From contig JAGRBZ010000006.1 of the NCBI GenBank assembly GCA_020433805.1, positions 1 to 64,000 on the forward strand: 64,000 bases of DNA, written 5' to 3'. The notes below the pieces were generated by a model. That model saw only the letters and a list, made by a program, of their open reading frames with translations, did not search any database and was not told the origin of the DNA. Source of the stretch: Anaerolineae bacterium (GTDB taxonomy: Bacteria; Chloroflexota; Anaerolineae; 4572-78; J111). This document shows, one piece after another, positions 6,512 through 55,608 of the stretch. Position numbers and translations under genes: made by a program. Positions within the stretch are counted from its first letter, which is position 1, and each line of letters starts with the position of its first letter.

Positions 6512-6523
6512 CAACTGAAGAGC
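6512..6523. repeat. direct repeat (left), possible target-site duplication
   Basis: CAACTGAAGAGC occurs here and again at 6686-6697, abutting both ends of the 162-bp palindromic element exactly. That placement is what a 12-bp target-site duplication would produce. Confidence 0.6.
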
Positions 6524-6685
6524 CACTGCCATTAAGTTAAGCGGTATAGCATCCCGAGTAGCGTGGAACGGAGTGGAGCGCGTATCGAGGGGTGCGATTG
6601 TGACGGCGATTCGGGCTGATCCGCACCCCTCGATACGGTCTCGCGAACTCGACCTACTCGGGATGCTATTAACTTAATGGCAGTG
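6524..6685. mobile_element. MITE-like palindromic element
   Basis: A 162-bp element with no ORF. Its ends are the inverted repeat CACTGCCATTAAGTTAA; the arms continue as TAGCATCCCGAGTAG, with a 6-base insertion (GCGGTA) in the left arm. A second perfect inner pair, CGTATCGAGGGGTGCG, lies closer to the centre, so single strands could fold into one long hairpin. It is flanked by 12-bp direct repeats. Non-autonomous; the transposase partner is not in this window. Confidence 0.7.
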
Positions 6686-6722
6686 CAACTGAAGAGCAGC
6701 TTCGTTAAAGTCTATCTAAAAC

Positions 6723-15212: not shown

Positions 15213-16382
15213 TTAGCAGGTTTCGAACCCAACCTGTAGGCGATACTCCTTGATGCTCCCCCCGGGGGCGATACAGATGCTGTGGGGTAAAAAAACCTGG
15301 TTCAGAAATCGTTTTAGGTCCGGCTGCTCCAAATGAGGCACGACAAGACCGAGGTTGTCGGAGACTCTCATGGCGAGGGACCACTGAGAGCGATTGGTTG
15401 AACCGCGAATATTGGACAATAGCTCGATGACGCGGGCTTCCAGATCGGCGGCGGGGATGGCATGTTCCGGGCCGGGGCCGAGGGCGCGATAGTAGCCGTA
15501 CTTGCCTCTGGTTAACGAGCCGGACATTTTTTTGTTGTAGACGGTGGACCAGAGCAGCCCGCTGAGTAGCCAGAAATGGCGGGTTCGCGAACCACCGCTG
15601 CCGCGCTCATCGAGGAGTTGTTGGACAGCGGTGAATGTTTCTTCGTTGACCAGTGGCGGATGATCGCCTGTGTATAGCTCCCCTCTCCATGCAAACTCGC
15701 CTATATAAAACCTATTACGGAATATCCTTTGCCAATAAGGAGCAGTGAATGGCTTGTTGTCGTCTTTTGCAAGACCTTCAGCTTTGGATTTTTCGCCCCA
15801 GGATTGGAGTGTGTAGTCTCCGCCCGCGAAGGCAACAAAGGCCTGAGCTATGACCGGGGCGTATTTGGGGTCGATGATGATGTTTTTGTCGAGGTCTCGG
15901 GTGTAACCTATCGGCAGTCTTCCCCCTGGAAATCTACCGCTTTTAGCCTTTTGTGATTGCCCCTTTGTGACCTCTCTTGACAGGTTGGCAGAGTAGAATT
16001 CATTGACCGCGCCGATGATACCGGCGACCATGCGCGACTCGGCGCTGTCGTCGTTGAGGAATGGTTCGGTGACGGAGAGGATTTTTTTGCCGGCTGTTTC
16101 GAGGCGGTCGCGGTAGACGAGCCAATCGAGGAGGTTGCGGGCAATTCGGTCGGATTTGTGGATGAGGACCGCGTCAGCAGCGCCGGCCGCGACGATCTGG
16201 ATCATCGCTTGAAAGGCCGGGCGCTGGTCGGTGCGAGCGGAGACGCCGGGTTCAACGAAGACGCGGACGACTTCGTAACCTTGGGTAGCGGCCCACTGCC
16301 GGCACTGTTCTTCTTGTGCTTCTAGGCTGTAGCCTCCCACCTGCTCTGCGCTGCTGACGCGGGTGTAGATGACGACTCTCAT
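15213..16382 (-). CDS. int: serine recombinase (phage integrase)
   Basis: 389 residues. The resolvase catalytic domain (about 2-150) has the active Ser in YTRVSSAEQ and the IHKSDRIARNLLD block. A recombinase domain (about 165-260) follows, with FPGGRLPIGY and a YWQRIFRNRFYIGEF. The zinc-ribbon region (about 270-300) has lost its cysteines: where relatives have CGxCG, this protein reads SGLLWSTVYNKKMSG. Position next to attL marks it as the integrase. It is the last gene of the leftward early operon and overlaps its upstream neighbour by 4 bases. Confidence 0.88.
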   Translation of the reverse strand: MRVVIYTRVSSAEQVGGYSLEAQEEQCRQWAATQGYEVVRVFVEPGVSARTDQRPAFQAMIQIVAAGAADAVLIHKSDRIARNLLDWLVYRDRLETAGKKILSVTEPFLNDDSAESRMVAGIIGAVNEFYSANLSREVTKGQSQKAKSGRFPGGRLPIGYTRDLDKNIIIDPKYAPVIAQAFVAFAGGDYTLQSWGEKSKAEGLAKDDNKPFTAPYWQRIFRNRFYIGEFAWRGELYTGDHPPLVNEETFTAVQQLLDERGSGGSRTRHFWLLSGLLWSTVYNKKMSGSLTRGKYGYYRALGPGPEHAIPAADLEARVIELLSNIRGSTNRSQWSLAMRVSDNLGLVVPHLEQPDLKRFLNQVFLPHSICIAPGGSIKEYRLQVGFETC

Positions 16383-29639: not shown

Positions 29640-30179
29640 ATGGCAAAGAAGTTACCGGTCTGGTTGACCAAAGCAGAACAGAAGAGACTGCTCGGGCTGG
29701 ACCTATCGGATCGGGATCGGGCCATTGTGAGCGTGTTTCTCTACGCCGGCCTGCGGGCGAATGAGCTGCGGATGCTGGATGTGGAGGACATTGATTTTGA
29801 GGCGATGACGGTCTTTGTTCGCTTCGGGAAGCGGGGTAAAGAGAGGATTATCCCGCTGCACTCCGAAGCGGCGGCTGCGCTGGCGGCCCACGTGGGCAAC
29901 CGGCGCAGCGGACCCTTATTTGTTAGCAACCGTGACCGGCGGATCAGCTACGACCGCCTACACTCGTTAATAGTCGATCTAGGACAGCAAGCCAGGATAC
30001 ACAAATCCCTTCATCCGCATGCTCTACGTCATACATTTGCGGTCGCTCTCCTGGAAACGGACCCTCCCACCGATTTGGAGACCATACGCGATTTGCTCGG
30101 TCACGGTTCTATAAAAACCACTGCGATTTATTTGCATTGTTCGACGGCTCGCCGGCGGGCGGCGGTCGATAGATTATAG
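29640..30179 (+). CDS. short tyrosine recombinase (XerC/D-like catalytic domain)
   Basis: 179 residues, just the catalytic domain. Catalytic residues are all visible: Arg in GLRANELR, Lys in FGKRGKER, HALRH, then HGSIKTTAIY with the nucleophile Tyr. The usual N-terminal SAM-like core-binding domain is absent. It lies far from the att sites, so the serine enzyme is the likelier integrase and this one may resolve multimers or act on another site. Confidence 0.8.
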   Translation: MAKKLPVWLTKAEQKRLLGLDLSDRDRAIVSVFLYAGLRANELRMLDVEDIDFEAMTVFVRFGKRGKERIIPLHSEAAAALAAHVGNRRSGPLFVSNRDRRISYDRLHSLIVDLGQQARIHKSLHPHALRHTFAVALLETDPPTDLETIRDLLGHGSIKTTAIYLHCSTARRRAAVDRL

Positions 30180-40345: not shown

Positions 40346-40384
40346 GTGGACCACGACTGTGCTGTTGTGGCGGAGTTGGGGTGA
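40346..40384 (+). pseudogene. remnant of a MuF C-terminal end
   Basis: In one frame the bases read DHDCAVVAELG and stop, closely resembling the true MuF end NGCDCTIVAEVDR. It has no start of its own. Suggests that the MuF end and kinase gene arrived by recombination, leaving the old terminus behind. Confidence 0.5.
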
Positions 40385-40390
40385 TAAAGA

Positions 40391-40419
40391 CCGGCTACAG
40401 AAGCGACTCCTGTAGCCGG
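40391..40419. terminator. 10-bp hairpin after the kinase insertion
   Basis: CCGGCTACAG/CTGTAGCCGG with a 9-base loop. On the minus strand it is followed by GGTCTTTAT, so it may end a short reverse transcript from the adjacent promoter-like site. Confidence 0.5.
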
Positions 40420-40448
40420 GGAGTAGCAAGTTATGGGGGCGGTGTCAA
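40420..40448 (-). promoter_or_regulatory. degenerate accessory promoter copy
   Basis: Reverse strand TTGACA, 17 bp, TACTCC, with TATAAAATAAC upstream. The bases from the AT tract to the spacer are nearly the same as at 45390, but the -10 hexamer is degenerate. Confidence 0.45.
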
Positions 40449-40480
40449 TAGGGTAAGGTTATTTTATAAAGGAAATATAG

Positions 40481-43914: not shown

Positions 43915-44483
43915 TTTTGAAGCGAACGGTTGAGCCTGCGGCGGAGCCGCTTAGTGTAAGTGCGCTCAAGAACCATTTACGGGTTGACCTGTCGGATGAT
44001 GATGAGTTAATTGCGGCTTACCTGGAGGCGGCGAGGGACTACGTTGAAAAAACGACACGGCGCTCGCTGGTTACTCAGACATGGCGTTTGTCTCTGGATG
44101 GTTGGCCGGCGTGCGACGAGATCATTTTGCCGAGGCCGCCGCTACAAAGCGTAACGTCGATTGTTTATTATGACAGCGAGGGGGCCAGCAACACGCTGGC
44201 TAGTAGCGCTTACGATGTAGACATCGACAGCGAGCCGGGCCGGGTTGTGCTGAAGCATGGCGAGTCGTGGCCATCGACAACGCTGCGCCCGATGAATCCG
44301 GTGCAGGTGACATACGTTGCCGGGTACGGTCTGGCGGCCGACGTGCCGAGCTACCTGGTGCATCTGATCAGGTTGCTGGTTAGCCATTGGTATGAGAACC
44401 GGGAACCGGTTGTTGTGGGGTCGATTGTGGGAAATATACCCCTGGCGGTGGATAGTTTGATTTGGTTGAACCGGAGCTATTGA
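43911..44483 (+). CDS. head-tail connector (gp6-like)
   Basis: 190 residues. Helical N-terminal part LSVSALKNHLRVDLSDDDEL and YLEAARDYVEKTTRRSL are the gp6/gp8-type head-tail connector signature; a beta insertion (residues 85-140) and VHLIRLLVSHWYENRE follow. Forms the ring under the portal. The late operon is interrupted here by a reverse-strand block. Confidence 0.88.
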   Translation: MILKRTVEPAAEPLSVSALKNHLRVDLSDDDELIAAYLEAARDYVEKTTRRSLVTQTWRLSLDGWPACDEIILPRPPLQSVTSIVYYDSEGASNTLASSAYDVDIDSEPGRVVLKHGESWPSTTLRPMNPVQVTYVAGYGLAADVPSYLVHLIRLLVSHWYENREPVVVGSIVGNIPLAVDSLIWLNRSY

Positions 44484-44591: not shown

Positions 44592-44620
44592 AAGAGGGAC
44601 AGGCCGGAGCCTATCCCTCT
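44592..44620 (-). terminator. terminator of the reverse accessory unit
   Basis: AGAGGGA-t-AGGC/GCCT-g-TCCCTCT with TCTTCTTTG after it on the reverse strand. TTTGACAGAG at 44574-44583 is a diverged relative of the late box. Confidence 0.6.
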
Positions 44621-44629
44621 GGGTGTGGA

Positions 44630-44989
44630 CTAGTTACCGTTGGGGGCGAAGGCGTGTTGCGACAACTCTTTGAGATAGGTTGTGAGCTGCTCTTCGCCGA
44701 GGTGGCGGGTGATGAACAGGAGGGCCAGAGAGGAAAGCTGCGGGCATTGCAGGGCGAACTGTTTACACTGCTGCATTTCTTCGGCCAGGGCCTGGACCTG
44801 CTCTTTGGTAAGGGTGACGCTGACGGTTGCGGACGGGCCGGTGATCTGGGTCAGATATTCGAGGCGGCGTTTTGTGGCGGCCAGGGAACGCTCAAGGGAG
44901 GGGATGTCGGAGTTGAGTAGGAATTCTATTTCTTCCTGGAGTAGGTTGGTTTGTTGGGGGGATAGTTTGTTGGTTGGTTGGGCGCTCAT
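44630..44989 (-). CDS. unknown accessory (moron) protein
   Basis: 119 residues from MSAQPTNKLSPQQ; upstream reading frame is ignored because the previous gene ends there (ATGA overlap). Helical throughout, with QALAEEMQQCKQFALQC in the centre. Second gene behind the structured leader. Function unknown. Confidence 0.6.
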   Translation of the reverse strand: MSAQPTNKLSPQQTNLLQEEIEFLLNSDIPSLERSLAATKRRLEYLTQITGPSATVSVTLTKEQVQALAEEMQQCKQFALQCPQLSSLALLFITRHLGEEQLTTYLKELSQHAFAPNGN

Positions 44990-45186
44990 CGGTTCATCGC
45001 CTCCAGTTCGGCCTTGCGGTAGCGTTTGAGGCGGTGGGTTAGTTCGATAGCGTGGCTGTAGTGGAAGAGGATGAATTCGATCATCGTGTCGATCTCGCCC
45101 CGGAGGGTGGGTAGATCGGTGGGGATAGGGTCTTCTTCTTGGGCCTGGGCCTCGTGACTGCTGGGTTGGTTCGCTTGTTCGTTCAT
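44986..45186 (-). CDS. unknown accessory protein controlled by a structured leader
   Basis: 66 residues (MNEQANQPSSHEAQAQEEDP..., then RLKRYRKAELEAMNR). Acidic, Gln-rich start and helical basic end. The ribosome binding site AAAGGAG overlaps GGAGCTGCG, which is complementary to the upstream leader, so translation may be switchable. Likely expressed from the prophage. Confidence 0.6.
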   Translation of the reverse strand: MNEQANQPSSHEAQAQEEDPIPTDLPTLRGEIDTMIEFILFHYSHAIELTHRLKRYRKAELEAMNR

Positions 45187-45361
45187 AGGATCGCAGCTCC
45201 TTTAACTGTAAACACAAAACCCTGTGAGGGGGTTGCCATGCTTGGAGCTGCGAACTCAGAAGCAGACGTGCCCCCCACAGGGTTTTGCACACCAATTTTA
45301 TATTGATTTGTGCGGGCAACAAAAAACGCCTGCCCTTATTCTGAGTTCGCAGCTCAATATG
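45187..45361 (-). ncRNA. structured 5' leader, riboswitch-like
   Basis: Read on the reverse strand from a start near 45361: arm B (GAGCTGCGAACTCAGAA, 45355-45339), a GGGCA/TGCCC hairpin, arm A' (CAAAACCCTGTGGGGGG, 45287-45271), arm B' (perfect complement of B, 45261-45245), arm A (CCCCCTCACAGGGTTTTG, 45232-45215), then AAAGGAGCTGCG (45203-45192), which is complementary to the end of B'. A/A' and B/B' interleave, so they form a pseudoknot or alternatives. B' can pair either with B or with the ribosome binding site. Confidence 0.7.
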
Positions 45362-45366
45362 CGTTC

Positions 45367-45395
45367 AGTGTATCACAGGGTGGGGGCGGTGTCAA
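45367..45395 (-). promoter_or_regulatory. accessory promoter of the leader transcript
   Basis: Reverse strand TTGACA (45395-45390), 17 bp, TACACT (45372-45367); AT-rich ATAAAATAACAATA lies upstream like an UP element. Consensus spacing is perfect. Confidence 0.8.
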
Positions 45396-45437
45396 TAGGG
45401 TATTGTTATTTTATTGGGAGGTAGTAGGGGGTAGGGA

Positions 45438-45644
45438 TTACTTTTGAAGGTCTTTGAGGGAAAGACCGAGTTCCTTGAGGATTTTGTGGAGGGTGCCGTT
45501 GGGAATTTCTCGATTGCGATGGTGAGGGACAGAGGTATAGAGATCGGTCGCGGGATTGTACCAGTATTCGTGACTGCCTTTTCCTTGACGATGGAATTGG
45601 CAACCCAGGCGACGCAGCTTCTTTACTAACTCGCTATAGCGCAT
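45438..45644 (-). CDS. hicA: HicA-type mRNA interferase toxin
   Basis: 68 residues. dsRBD-like fold with the catalytic His in KGSHEYW and family tail VPHHRNREIPNGTLHKILKELGLS. Start overlaps the HicB stop (TAATG). Cleaves mRNA when free of HicB. Located in the reverse block inside the late operon. Confidence 0.92.
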   Translation of the reverse strand: MRYSELVKKLRRLGCQFHRQGKGSHEYWYNPATDLYTSVPHHRNREIPNGTLHKILKELGLSLKDLQK

Positions 45645-45883
45645 TAGGCGGGGACGAGGATAGACAAGGATAGTTTGTCGATGTTTTCTTCCAGTTCCGG
45701 GGGGAGCGGCTTGCCGGCATCTTTGTAGATTTGGATGAGTTCTTGGGCGACGATGGGGGCTTCGCGGTAAACCTCTTCGATAGTAAGGCCATCGACAACG
45801 AGACCGGGGAGCAACGGAGATGTCGCCACATAGCCAGTTTCGGTACGCTCTATTTCGATGGGTAGATTAAATACATTACTCAT
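45644..45883 (-). CDS. hicB: HicB-type antitoxin
   Basis: 79 residues. Partial RNase H-like HicB fold (IEIERTETGYVATSPLLPGLVVDG, shortened here, then GLTIEEVYREAPIVAQELI). AAAGGAG precedes the start. It lacks a clear C-terminal DNA-binding domain, so regulation may rest with the gene upstream. Confidence 0.88.
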   Translation of the reverse strand: MSNVFNLPIEIERTETGYVATSPLLPGLVVDGLTIEEVYREAPIVAQELIQIYKDAGKPLPPELEENIDKLSLSILVPA

Positions 45884-46148
45884 TCGAGATCTCCTTTATT
45901 AGGTCATCGGCGGTGCCGCGCTTGACTTGGCCGGTTTTGTAGGCGTGTCGAGACTCGGCTACGACTTGTTCCCAGGGGATGAGTTCGTCATCTTCTTGGC
46001 GGGCTTGGGCCATCTCTTCGGCGTCTTCTAGGTCTTCGAGGAGCGTTAATAGTTGTTCCCAGAGAGGCCAGTCGAGTAGGACGGCTTCTTTGTTACCGTC
46101 GGCATCGATTAGGATTTTGGCCGAGGTAATTAGTTCGGTGATGCTCAT
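45876..46148 (-). CDS. antitoxin-like third gene of the HicBA unit
   Basis: 90 residues from MSITELITSAKI; overlaps HicB by 8 bases. SAKILIDADGNKEAVLLDWP resembles the start of Phd/YefM-type or related antitoxins, followed by an acidic helical tail (EDAEEMAQARQEDDEL). First gene of the operon; may supply the DNA-binding activity, or be a relict of another pair. Confidence 0.6.
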   Translation of the reverse strand: MSITELITSAKILIDADGNKEAVLLDWPLWEQLLTLLEDLEDAEEMAQARQEDDELIPWEQVVAESRHAYKTGQVKRGTADDLIKEISNE

Positions 46149-46177
46149 CTTGGATCTCCTTTGCTTAGGTGATAGAC

Positions 46178-46207
46178 ATGATACCACGCGGCAGGACGGG
46201 GTGTCAA
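46178..46207 (-). promoter_or_regulatory. promoter of the HicBA-type operon
   Basis: Reverse strand TTGACA, 18 bp, TATCAT; nearly the same 30 bp as at 27637-27666. The AT tract CATAAAATAACAATA is upstream. Spacer includes the part-palindrome ACCGCGTGGT-like CCGCGTGG, a candidate operator. Confidence 0.75.
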
Positions 46208-46235
46208 TAATTTATTGTTATTTTATGGGTGGATT

Positions 46236-46568
46236 ATGAGAGCCGGAAAGCTACGGCATCGGGTGGTGATACAGCAGAATACGCCGACGCGGGATACGGA
46301 TGGGGCTGAGCTTGAGAGCTGGTCTACGGTGGCTACAGTGTGGGCGGCGGTGATCCCGTTGAGTGGGCGGGAGCAGTTTATTAATGCTGAGGACCAGACG
46401 GTGGCGCTGTCGTCGACGCGGATTGAGATGCGGTATCGGAGCGGTCTGACGACCCGGATGCGGGTGACGTGGAGTGGGCATACGTATGACATCCAGCGGA
46501 TTGTTGAGGTGAACACGCGACAGCGGGAGCTACATTTGCTGTGCGAGGAGGTTAACGCCGATGAGTAA
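46236..46568 (+). CDS. head-tail adaptor (stopper)
   Basis: 110 residues from MRAGKLRHRVVIQQ, the classical start of the SPP1 gp16/HK97 gp7-like head closure family; WAAVIPLSGREQFINAE and RYRSGLTTRMRVTWSG complete the beta barrel. Resumes the late operon after the reverse block. Confidence 0.88.
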   Translation: MRAGKLRHRVVIQQNTPTRDTDGAELESWSTVATVWAAVIPLSGREQFINAEDQTVALSSTRIEMRYRSGLTTRMRVTWSGHTYDIQRIVEVNTRQRELHLLCEEVNADE

Positions 46569-54741: not shown

Positions 54742-54818
<77 letters not shown>

Positions 54819-54821
54819 GGT

Positions 54822-54907
54822 GAATTGAGAATTAAAAATGTAGAATTTAGAATTGTTTGGCTGTATCCGGCCCTTTCTTCATTCTCTATTCTACATTCTC
54901 AATTTTT
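54822..54907. repeat. inverted GAATTGAGAATG-type repeat
   Basis: TTGAGAATTAAAAATGTAG faces ATTCTACATTCTCAA across a short GC-rich centre, between two tRNA genes. The same word family appears near 29155-29200 in the prophage. Confidence 0.5.
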
Positions 54908-54912
54908 TAAGA

Positions 54913-54985
54913 CAGGGGTGGCAGGAATCGAACCCGCAACCTTCGGTTTTGGAGACCGACGCTCTGCCAATTGAGCTACACCCCT
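54913..54985 (-). tRNA. tRNA-Trp (CCA)
   Basis: Acceptor AGGGGTG/CACCCCT, anticodon CCA, T-loop TTCGATT. No encoded 3' CCA. Confidence 0.93.
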
Positions 54986-55000
54986 AAGTGTTTAAGAGAG

Positions 55001-55072
55001 TAGCGGGGGAGGGATTCGAACCCCCGACCTCCAGGTTATGAGCCTGGCGAGCTGCCTCTGCTCCACCCCGCA
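55001..55072 (-). tRNA. tRNA-Met (CAT), probable initiator
   Basis: Starts TGCGGGGTGGAGCAG; positions 1 and 72 are T and T and cannot pair, the known hallmark of initiator tRNA, and the sequence follows the fMet pattern closely. The anticodon stem has AGG/CCT rather than GGG/CCC. Confidence 0.82.
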
Positions 55073-55081
55073 TCGAATGCG

Positions 55082-55490
55082 TTGATTTCTTGAAAAAGGT
55101 TAGTACCCCCGATTCTGTTTTGGCCGCCATCTGTCTCAGGCTTTTACACCTGGCGATTCTTGGCTTACAAAGTGTTACTTTGGGTCACCATTATCGCTGC
55201 GGTGAGACCATGCCTTAGCCTGGCCCACTCACCTTGCTCTCAATCGCACGCTCGCCTAGCCGATCTTGTCACCAAGACCGCTGGTAGGCTCTTACCCTAC
55301 CCTTTCACTCATCACCCCTTAGGGCTGACTTGCTTTCTGTTGCGGTTGTAGTCAAAGACACTTTTCAGTGCTTTGCCCTCACTTACGGTTTCGTGAGGCG
55401 ATCTTGCCTCGTATATGAGGCTGAGAGTCGGGAAGTTCCTCTACTCAACAATGGTTGAGCAGCGACGGCTTCCTTACATCAAGAAATCAA
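55082..55490 (-). ncRNA. rnpB: RNase P RNA, bacterial type A
   Basis: About 409 nt. P1 is closed by TTGATTTCTTGA (3' side) against TCAAGAAATCAA (5' side). Conserved core blocks are visible on the reverse strand: GAGGAACTTCCCGACTC (P4 5'), GAAAGGGTAGGGTAAGAGCC with CTACCAGCGG, and ACAGAATCGGGGGTACTAAC near the 3' end. It processes tRNA 5' leaders and sits between tRNA genes. Short ORFs over it are not genes. Confidence 0.92.
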
Positions 55491-55508
55491 TTTTTAGGAA
55501 AAGTTCCC

Positions 55509-55529
55509 AAAACAGATACTATCTGTTTT
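55509..55529. terminator. hairpin between tRNA-Arg and rnpB
   Basis: AAAACAGATA/TATCTGTTTT with A and T runs on both sides; it can end the tRNA-Arg transcript. Confidence 0.55.
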
Positions 55530-55535
55530 TTCAGG

Positions 55536-55608
55536 CGTCCCCGGTAGGATTCGAACCTACGGCCTTTTGGTCCGCAACCAAACGCTCTATCCACTGAGCT
55601 ACGGAGAC
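55536..55608 (-). tRNA. tRNA-Arg (GCG)
   Basis: Acceptor GTCTCCG/CGGGGAC, anticodon loop TTGCGGA, T-loop TTCGAAT. No encoded CCA. Confidence 0.9.

Follow-up and report, generated by a model that had tools for sequence, protein, structure and literature searches.

The closest described counterparts of the leader RNA considered here are c4 of phage P1 and CI of phage P4. In the P1 record, a promoter is followed by a1/b1, c4 (77 nt), a2/b2, icd (73 aa) and ant1, which overlaps icd by 4 nt; after the larger transcript has been processed, loop b' of C4 partly occludes a ribosome binding site (PMC5320573). The CI RNA of P4 pairs with seqA, which lies upstream of it, and with seqC, which lies downstream of it (PMC4825925). 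A survey published in 2010 placed C4 in Proteobacteria and phages only (PMC2864571).

We analyzed a window of 64,000 nucleotides, by which we mean the whole stretch of DNA under study, on a 66,314-base contig belonging to a 9.8-Mb draft genome assembly. Inside a prophage, this window contains a 174-nt leader on the minus strand whose segments run in the order B, A', B', A and then a copy of the start of B over the Shine-Dalgarno (SD). We tentatively propose that this leader is a self-targeting antisense RNA in the manner of P1 c4 and P4 CI, which may keep a two-gene prophage operon off. Below we describe the locus, compare it with these systems, and weigh other explanations of its repeats where the evidence bears on them.

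Results

A minus-strand block among the late genes of a prophage

The prophage adjoins host genes (AI-2E transporters and a large hybrid kinase) on the same contig, and the phage genes identified in the window include those for a serine integrase, terminase, portal, capsid, connector and head completion protein. Between the connector gene, which ends at 44483, and the head completion gene, which starts at 46239, lies an opposite-strand block that holds a Phd-like/HicB-like/HicA cassette and the leader-ORF1-ORF2 transcription unit.

15213-16382, minus strand: serine integrase, a serine recombinase related to CcrB
29640-30179, plus strand: integrase of 179 aa, matching the second part only of its family profile
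45876-46154, minus strand: Phd/YefM-like protein, weak match
45644-45883, minus strand: HicB-like protein, weak match
45438-45644, minus strand: HicA, Pfam match

Because the equivalent gaps in related phages (four gaps read) hold plus-strand genes, and because no copy of the reverse cassette was found in related phages that have the connector gene in common (four gaps read, 80 loci searched), we take the minus-strand block to be a moron-like insertion. The cassette had no blastn match in phages. The first-pass annotation of this DNA had called the downstream genes prophage morons, and they do look like morons in their reverse orientation among late genes, their own promoter and their own terminator-like hairpin.

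Several other features of the prophage and its surroundings deserve mention in their own right. This one prophage carries two integrases of different type, the CcrB-related serine recombinase and the 179-aa integrase. HicA and the weakly matching HicB-like and Phd/YefM-like proteins are encoded in one operon (45438-46154, minus strand) and possibly form a three-gene toxin-antitoxin moron. A tRNA cluster (Gly, Trp, Met and Arg) at 54745-55608 on the minus strand adjoins the late genes and could be phage-borne or an integration landmark. Host DNA at 6515-6695 contains a nearly perfect palindrome of 162 bp (DNA fold z = -10.9); it has 41 matches in the assembly as a whole and is a MITE-like multi-copy repeat.

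The promoter and a shared upstream element

45367-45395, minus strand: promoter TTGACA-17-TACACT, 10 of 12 consensus matches, with TG ahead of the -10 box
45388-45412, minus strand: shared upstream element AAAATAACAATACCCTATTGACACC, which includes the -35 box; three copies in the window
45388-45412, 46200-46224 and 40441-40465, minus strand: the copies of this 25-nt element

The minus-strand promoter reported in the first-pass annotation is present, with its -35 box TTGACA at 45395-45390, a spacer of 17 nt and its -10 box TACACT at 45372-45367, and the transcript start predicted from this match is near 45360. The 25-nt element AAAATAACnnTAnnnTATTGACACC occurs at the leader promoter, at that of the toxin-antitoxin cassette and at a third site; a search of the 9.8-Mb assembly with its 22-nt core, allowing up to 2 mismatches, gave no further copy. 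A dyad, CAATAnnnTATTG, at 45393-45405 overlaps the -35 box and occurs exactly solely at 45393 and 46205; lying over the -35 of both cassette promoters, it looks like a candidate common operator. The third copy of the element belongs to a site (40370-40465, minus strand) with a poor -10 next to it and then a 10-bp hairpin with TCTTTAT, which may give a very short RNA or be the remnant of a lost moron.

Interleaved segments that exceed chance

45339-45355, minus strand: B, upstream target-like copy, near position +6 of the predicted transcript; corresponds to a1/b1 or seqA
45271-45287, minus strand: A', 5' side of the stem that closes hairpin II
45245-45261, minus strand: B', antisense to both B and the SD region; apical in hairpin II
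45215-45231, minus strand: A, 3' side of the stem that closes hairpin II
45191-45200, minus strand: GGAGCTGCGA, second copy of the B start, overlapping the SD; analogue of b2 or seqC

The arms A/A' and B/B', described earlier as interleaved in the order B-A'-B'-A, were all found where that description had put them on the minus strand. B and B' are complementary over 17 nt (100%), and A' and A over 17 nt by 16 Watson-Crick pairs and one G-U, a stem that reaches 18-19 bp in the fold. We also confirmed the claim that a third copy of the B start covers the SD of a 66-residue ORF: GGAGCTGCGA at 45200-45191 is complementary over 10 nt to B' at 45253-45244, the copy of the B start spans 9 nt, the SD (AAAGGAG) occupies 45203-45197 and the ATG of ORF1 stands at 45186.

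Shuffled sequence falls far short of both the perfect 17-nt repeat and the triple match. Across 2,000 dinucleotide-shuffled leaders, the longest exact inverted repeat was at most 12 nt, and the leader's minimum free energy of -73.3 kcal/mol (z = -4.5) was reached by none of 200 shuffles. We used a triple-copy detector, which looks for an upstream copy, its complement and a copy near a start codon; it reported a triple of at least 8 nt in 3 of 20,000 leader shuffles and one of 9 nt in none of the 20,000. When B' was kept fixed and the 27 nt before the ATG were shuffled, a 9-nt match to B' arose in 31 of 50,000 trials. At the present locus the detector positions are 45355/45252/45199. Among 4,498 real ORF starts from the window and further loci, an 8-nt triple was present at 10, and an enclosing stem as well at 3, namely the present locus and two starts in one repeat cluster of a related phage contig (L068). 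That cluster (L068 1150-1420) is built of ACGTCATGGCCGCCCGTGAGGCGGCCATCC and mimics the triple-copy pattern; as a local repeat cluster, it was rejected as a second such leader.

Target copies of at least 8 nt were found for B' alone, and the leader contains no separate a' segment. An RNase P signature (GGW) is not evident in the leader, where a GGT at 45296-45294 was noted by eye. A transcription attenuator was considered and rejected, the sole terminator-like site in the leader being a 5-bp stem of a kind found at chance rate.

Two coupled ORFs and a terminator-like hairpin

44986-45186, minus strand: ORF1, 66 aa; positional counterpart of icd
44630-44989, minus strand: ORF2, 119 aa, with an ATGA overlap (4 nt) with the ORF1 stop and its own GGAGG; positional counterpart of ant
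44593-44620, minus strand: terminator-like hairpin of 12 bp with a TCCG loop, then TCTTTG, 10 nt past the ORF2 stop

ORF1 is predicted to consist of an acidic disordered N-terminus and one 40-residue helix (pLDDT 84.7), and its codon-position G+C of 0.63/0.36/0.73 is like that of known phage genes of this prophage. The predicted fold of ORF2 is uninformative (pLDDT 43). The ORF2 frame stays open through the leader, giving a 230-aa open frame, and we do not favor translation of the leader in this frame because the codon-position G+C of ORF1 is normal and ORF1 has an SD of its own. Neither protein belongs to an accepted Pfam, PHROG or NCBIfam family, and searches for homologues returned none for either in viral contigs, GTDB contigs or phages, and none for ORF2 in plasmids or, with HMMER, in 60 relatives and 400 phylum genomes. 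A weak eL13-like match of ORF2 was judged to be chance, and ORF1 gave no alignment with Icd.

Competing folds and access to the Shine-Dalgarno

Each pair of arms is the core of a longer hairpin, and the two hairpins overlap.

45245-45355, minus strand: hairpin I, the long B:B' hairpin, -59.1 kcal/mol for 45360-45243, predicted to be the most stable and the first formed
about 45212-45290, minus strand: hairpin II, A':A with B' at its tip, about 79 nt, -45.9 kcal/mol

Hairpin I continues the B:B' pairing by 8-9 bp, and in hairpin II B' is predicted to sit in a short apical helix, not in a large loop. For the 181-nt leader, the ensembles with hairpin I, hairpin II or B':SD pairing have energies of -75.9, -72.5 and -68.7 kcal/mol, respectively, and with 40 nt more of the ORF these become -83.7, -81.6 and -80.8 kcal/mol. 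Relative to the best fold, B:B', the gap is 3.4 kcal/mol for A':A and, for B':SD, 7 kcal/mol in a short transcript and 3-4 kcal/mol in longer ones, all gaps lying within the error of nearest-neighbor models and taking no account of pseudoknots. B:B' and A':A could also coexist as a pseudoknot. The mutually exclusive pairings proposed in the first-pass annotation thus exist, and they are close in energy, with ensembles within a few kcal/mol.

Three alternative pairings of close energy, together with an SD copy complementary to B' beyond chance, would suit a leader that switches in cis only, in which the nascent RNA chooses hairpin I, hairpin II or B':SD and a factor that binds B or A (a protein, the ribosome or a ligand) alters translation of ORF1. 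However, the predicted behavior of the RNA makes this unlikely. In minimum-energy folds of the growing transcript, B captures B' ahead of SD synthesis and keeps hold of it, and so B:B', formed before the SD is made, is predicted to win both at equilibrium and during transcription. When B was removed in silico, the RNA went to hairpin II and not to the B':SD helix that would close the SD. The cost of opening the SD was nearly equal in folds I and II (4.9 vs 4.0 kcal/mol for 181 nt, and 6.4 kcal/mol in both for 221 nt), and predicted SD opening showed no steady rise with temperature. Because B holds B', because loss of B leads to hairpin II and because SD accessibility is similar in the two hairpins, pairing in cis does not by itself readily account for the third copy of the B start over the SD. 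The leader also has no conserved aptamer-like core and no Rfam match, including to riboswitch or thermometer models. A ligand or temperature switch in cis, the logic suggested in the first-pass annotation, is therefore unsupported.

We are similarly doubtful of a simpler reading, in which a stable hairpin at the 5' end does no more than protect the mRNA, or shield ORF1 from transcription running on from the HicA cassette, and the alternative stem and SD copy are by-products. Hairpin I does sit at the very 5' end with its very high stability (-59 kcal/mol), and the stretch from HicA to the leader promoter showed no terminator, but such a hairpin would leave the second 17-bp interleaved stem and the 9-10-nt SD copy unexplained, and at 46207 a sister promoter with that shared upstream element has a short leader that lacks repeats of this kind.

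A self-targeting antisense leader would instead use B' in trans. When we co-folded a 75-nt hairpin-II RNA (45287-45213) with the ribosome binding site region, the B':SD helix did not appear as a nested minimum, so that pairing in trans would need loop-loop nucleation.

Known RNA classes and relatives of the leader

The Rfam C4 model (RF01695) had no match at the leader, either at the gathering threshold or at E up to 5, and with the same program it scored 68.8 bits in P1 and 74.9 bits in P4 as positive controls. Likewise, the window held no match to c4-a1b1 (RF03163; 51 bits in the P1 control) or to isrK (RF01394; 60.8 bits in the P4 control). A match to mir-454 (E 0.006, below the gathering score) was rejected as a generic long hairpin. 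Over 301 phylum genomes the C4 model found no match, the control being likewise unmatched.

Relatives of the leader itself proved equally elusive. No second copy was found in the 9.8-Mb assembly, and DNA searches of relatives and 400 phylum genomes returned nothing beyond 20-30-nt chance pieces. With a covariance model of the leader (R1), the leader was itself the sole significant match in 298 class genomes, next to two weak matches at E 0.01-0.05. A 16-mer of B had 17 matches in viral contigs, none with B' near, and these were judged to be chance.

These searches bear on the idea that the inverted repeats act at the level of DNA, as a palindromic miniature element or a protein-binding cruciform that happens to sit in the leader. 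GCAT does stand on both flanks of the B/B' palindrome, and the genome has palindromic multi-copy repeats such as that at 6524-6685 with its 41 matches; nevertheless, the lack of a second leader copy in the assembly, in 400 phylum genomes by DNA or in 298 class genomes by covariance model makes this explanation quite improbable, and a MITE would not be expected to put its end sequence on an SD.

Comparison with P1 C4, P4 CI and other systems

The first-pass annotation knew of no named RNA class with this form, a statement that probably has to be revised, the segment order being that of c4 of P1 and CI of P4. From the promoter onward, the locus follows the P1 c4-icd-ant1 order, with B, hairpin II, the SD copy, ORF1 and ORF2 in turn. 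The antisense RNA is 77 nt in P1 and about 79 nt here, the small ORF has 73 and 66 aa, respectively, and the second ORF overlaps it by 4 nt in both. The closing stems of C4 and hairpin II are both about 17 bp, and the same program gives the two RNAs -42.0 and -45.9 kcal/mol, respectively. The fold that pairs the first target with the antisense segment and the fold that forms the antisense stem are 3.8 kcal/mol apart in the P1 leader and 3.4 kcal/mol apart at the locus, and the triple-copy detector also fires at b1/b'/b2 of P1 (48269/48380/48452). As in the C4/CI type, the antisense segment is complementary to an upstream target and to a ribosome binding site target in the same transcript, and it is predicted to be enclosed by a stem of 17-19 bp in an RNA of about 79 nt.

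The two loci also differ. P1 C4 has both a' and b', whereas B' is the one antisense segment here; B:B' is 17 bp long where the P1 pairing has 7-8 nt, and it outcompetes hairpin II in cis. The locus lies among late genes and P1 c4 in the immunity region, the downstream proteins are unrelated to Icd and Ant, there is no sequence or covariance match to C4 of P1/P7 and no RNase P signature is evident at the locus.

The comparison with P4, which rests on Rfam matches and the published description of seqA and seqC, likewise shows a central antisense RNA with two targets flanking it in its own transcript. P4 CI, however, matches the Rfam C4 model and the P4 RNA upstream of CI matches isrK, whereas the locus matches neither; and CI acts by transcription termination, whereas the second site at the locus covers the SD. 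IsrK of Gifsy-1 (RF01394) is like the locus in being a prophage RNA that is both a leader and a regulator of a small ORF and its partner gene, but the IsrK sRNA opens an otherwise closed ribosome binding site, and the locus has no Rfam isrK match. We conclude that the anatomy of the locus supports its working like c4/CI, which stops short of making it a C4 RNA, because the segment order fits but the covariance models do not match and the second antisense loop is absent.

In translational attenuation of the erm/cat type and in the metastable mRNAs of hok/sok, a single segment can pair either with an upstream partner or with the Shine-Dalgarno. The locus differs from the former in having no ribosome-stalling leader ORF with an SD. 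A type I toxin-antitoxin or hok-like metastable mRNA is very improbable here: the metastable interleaved 5' pairings, the small downstream ORF and the adjoining HicA/HicB-like toxin-antitoxin moron would fit, but ORF1 is not hydrophobic (33% AILMFWV, acidic) or otherwise hok-like, no promoter was found for an opposing antisense RNA and no 3'-end fold-back was seen.

Discussion

The self-targeting antisense leader that we tentatively favor builds on features read directly from the DNA and its predicted folds: the promoter match, the segment order, the complementarities, the competing folds, the ATGA-coupled ORFs and the terminator-like hairpin. The single promoter would give one transcript of the leader, ORF1 and ORF2, and within it A'-B'-A in the middle of the leader would fold into a hairpin of ~79 nt that may be excised or may accumulate as a small RNA. 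B' of this small RNA could then pair in trans with B, near the 5' end, and with the SD copy of new transcripts. Pairing at the SD copy would block translation of ORF1, and ORF2 would be silenced through translational coupling and polarity. In its own molecule B' would be occupied by B, as hairpin I, which would leave the message open while the small RNA is low; once the small RNA had accumulated, for example in an established lysogen, the message would be closed. A model of the c4/CI type assigns a function to each of the five segments and accounts for the repetition of the 5'-end sequence at the SD.

The leader may be a highly diverged relative of C4 and CI. It is further possible, although we think it rather unlikely, that this self-targeting leader has no common descent with C4 and CI, originated in a different lineage of phages and governs a new operon of two proteins. 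It would then represent convergent RNA-based immunity, in which B:B' pairing in cis serves as an intrinsic timer, so that the earliest transcripts stay open.

Should the RNA act in trans, ORF1 and ORF2 would be candidates for lysis-lysogeny or superinfection functions. The arrangement also offers a route to other leaders that sequence models have missed, by way of a copy, a hairpin-borne complement and a copy over the SD, ahead of small ORFs coupled by ATGA. The same wiring, occurring here in the prophage of a large-genome bacterium with no detectable sequence or covariance relation to C4 or CI, would suggest that self-targeting leader RNAs recur as a means of silencing prophage operons.
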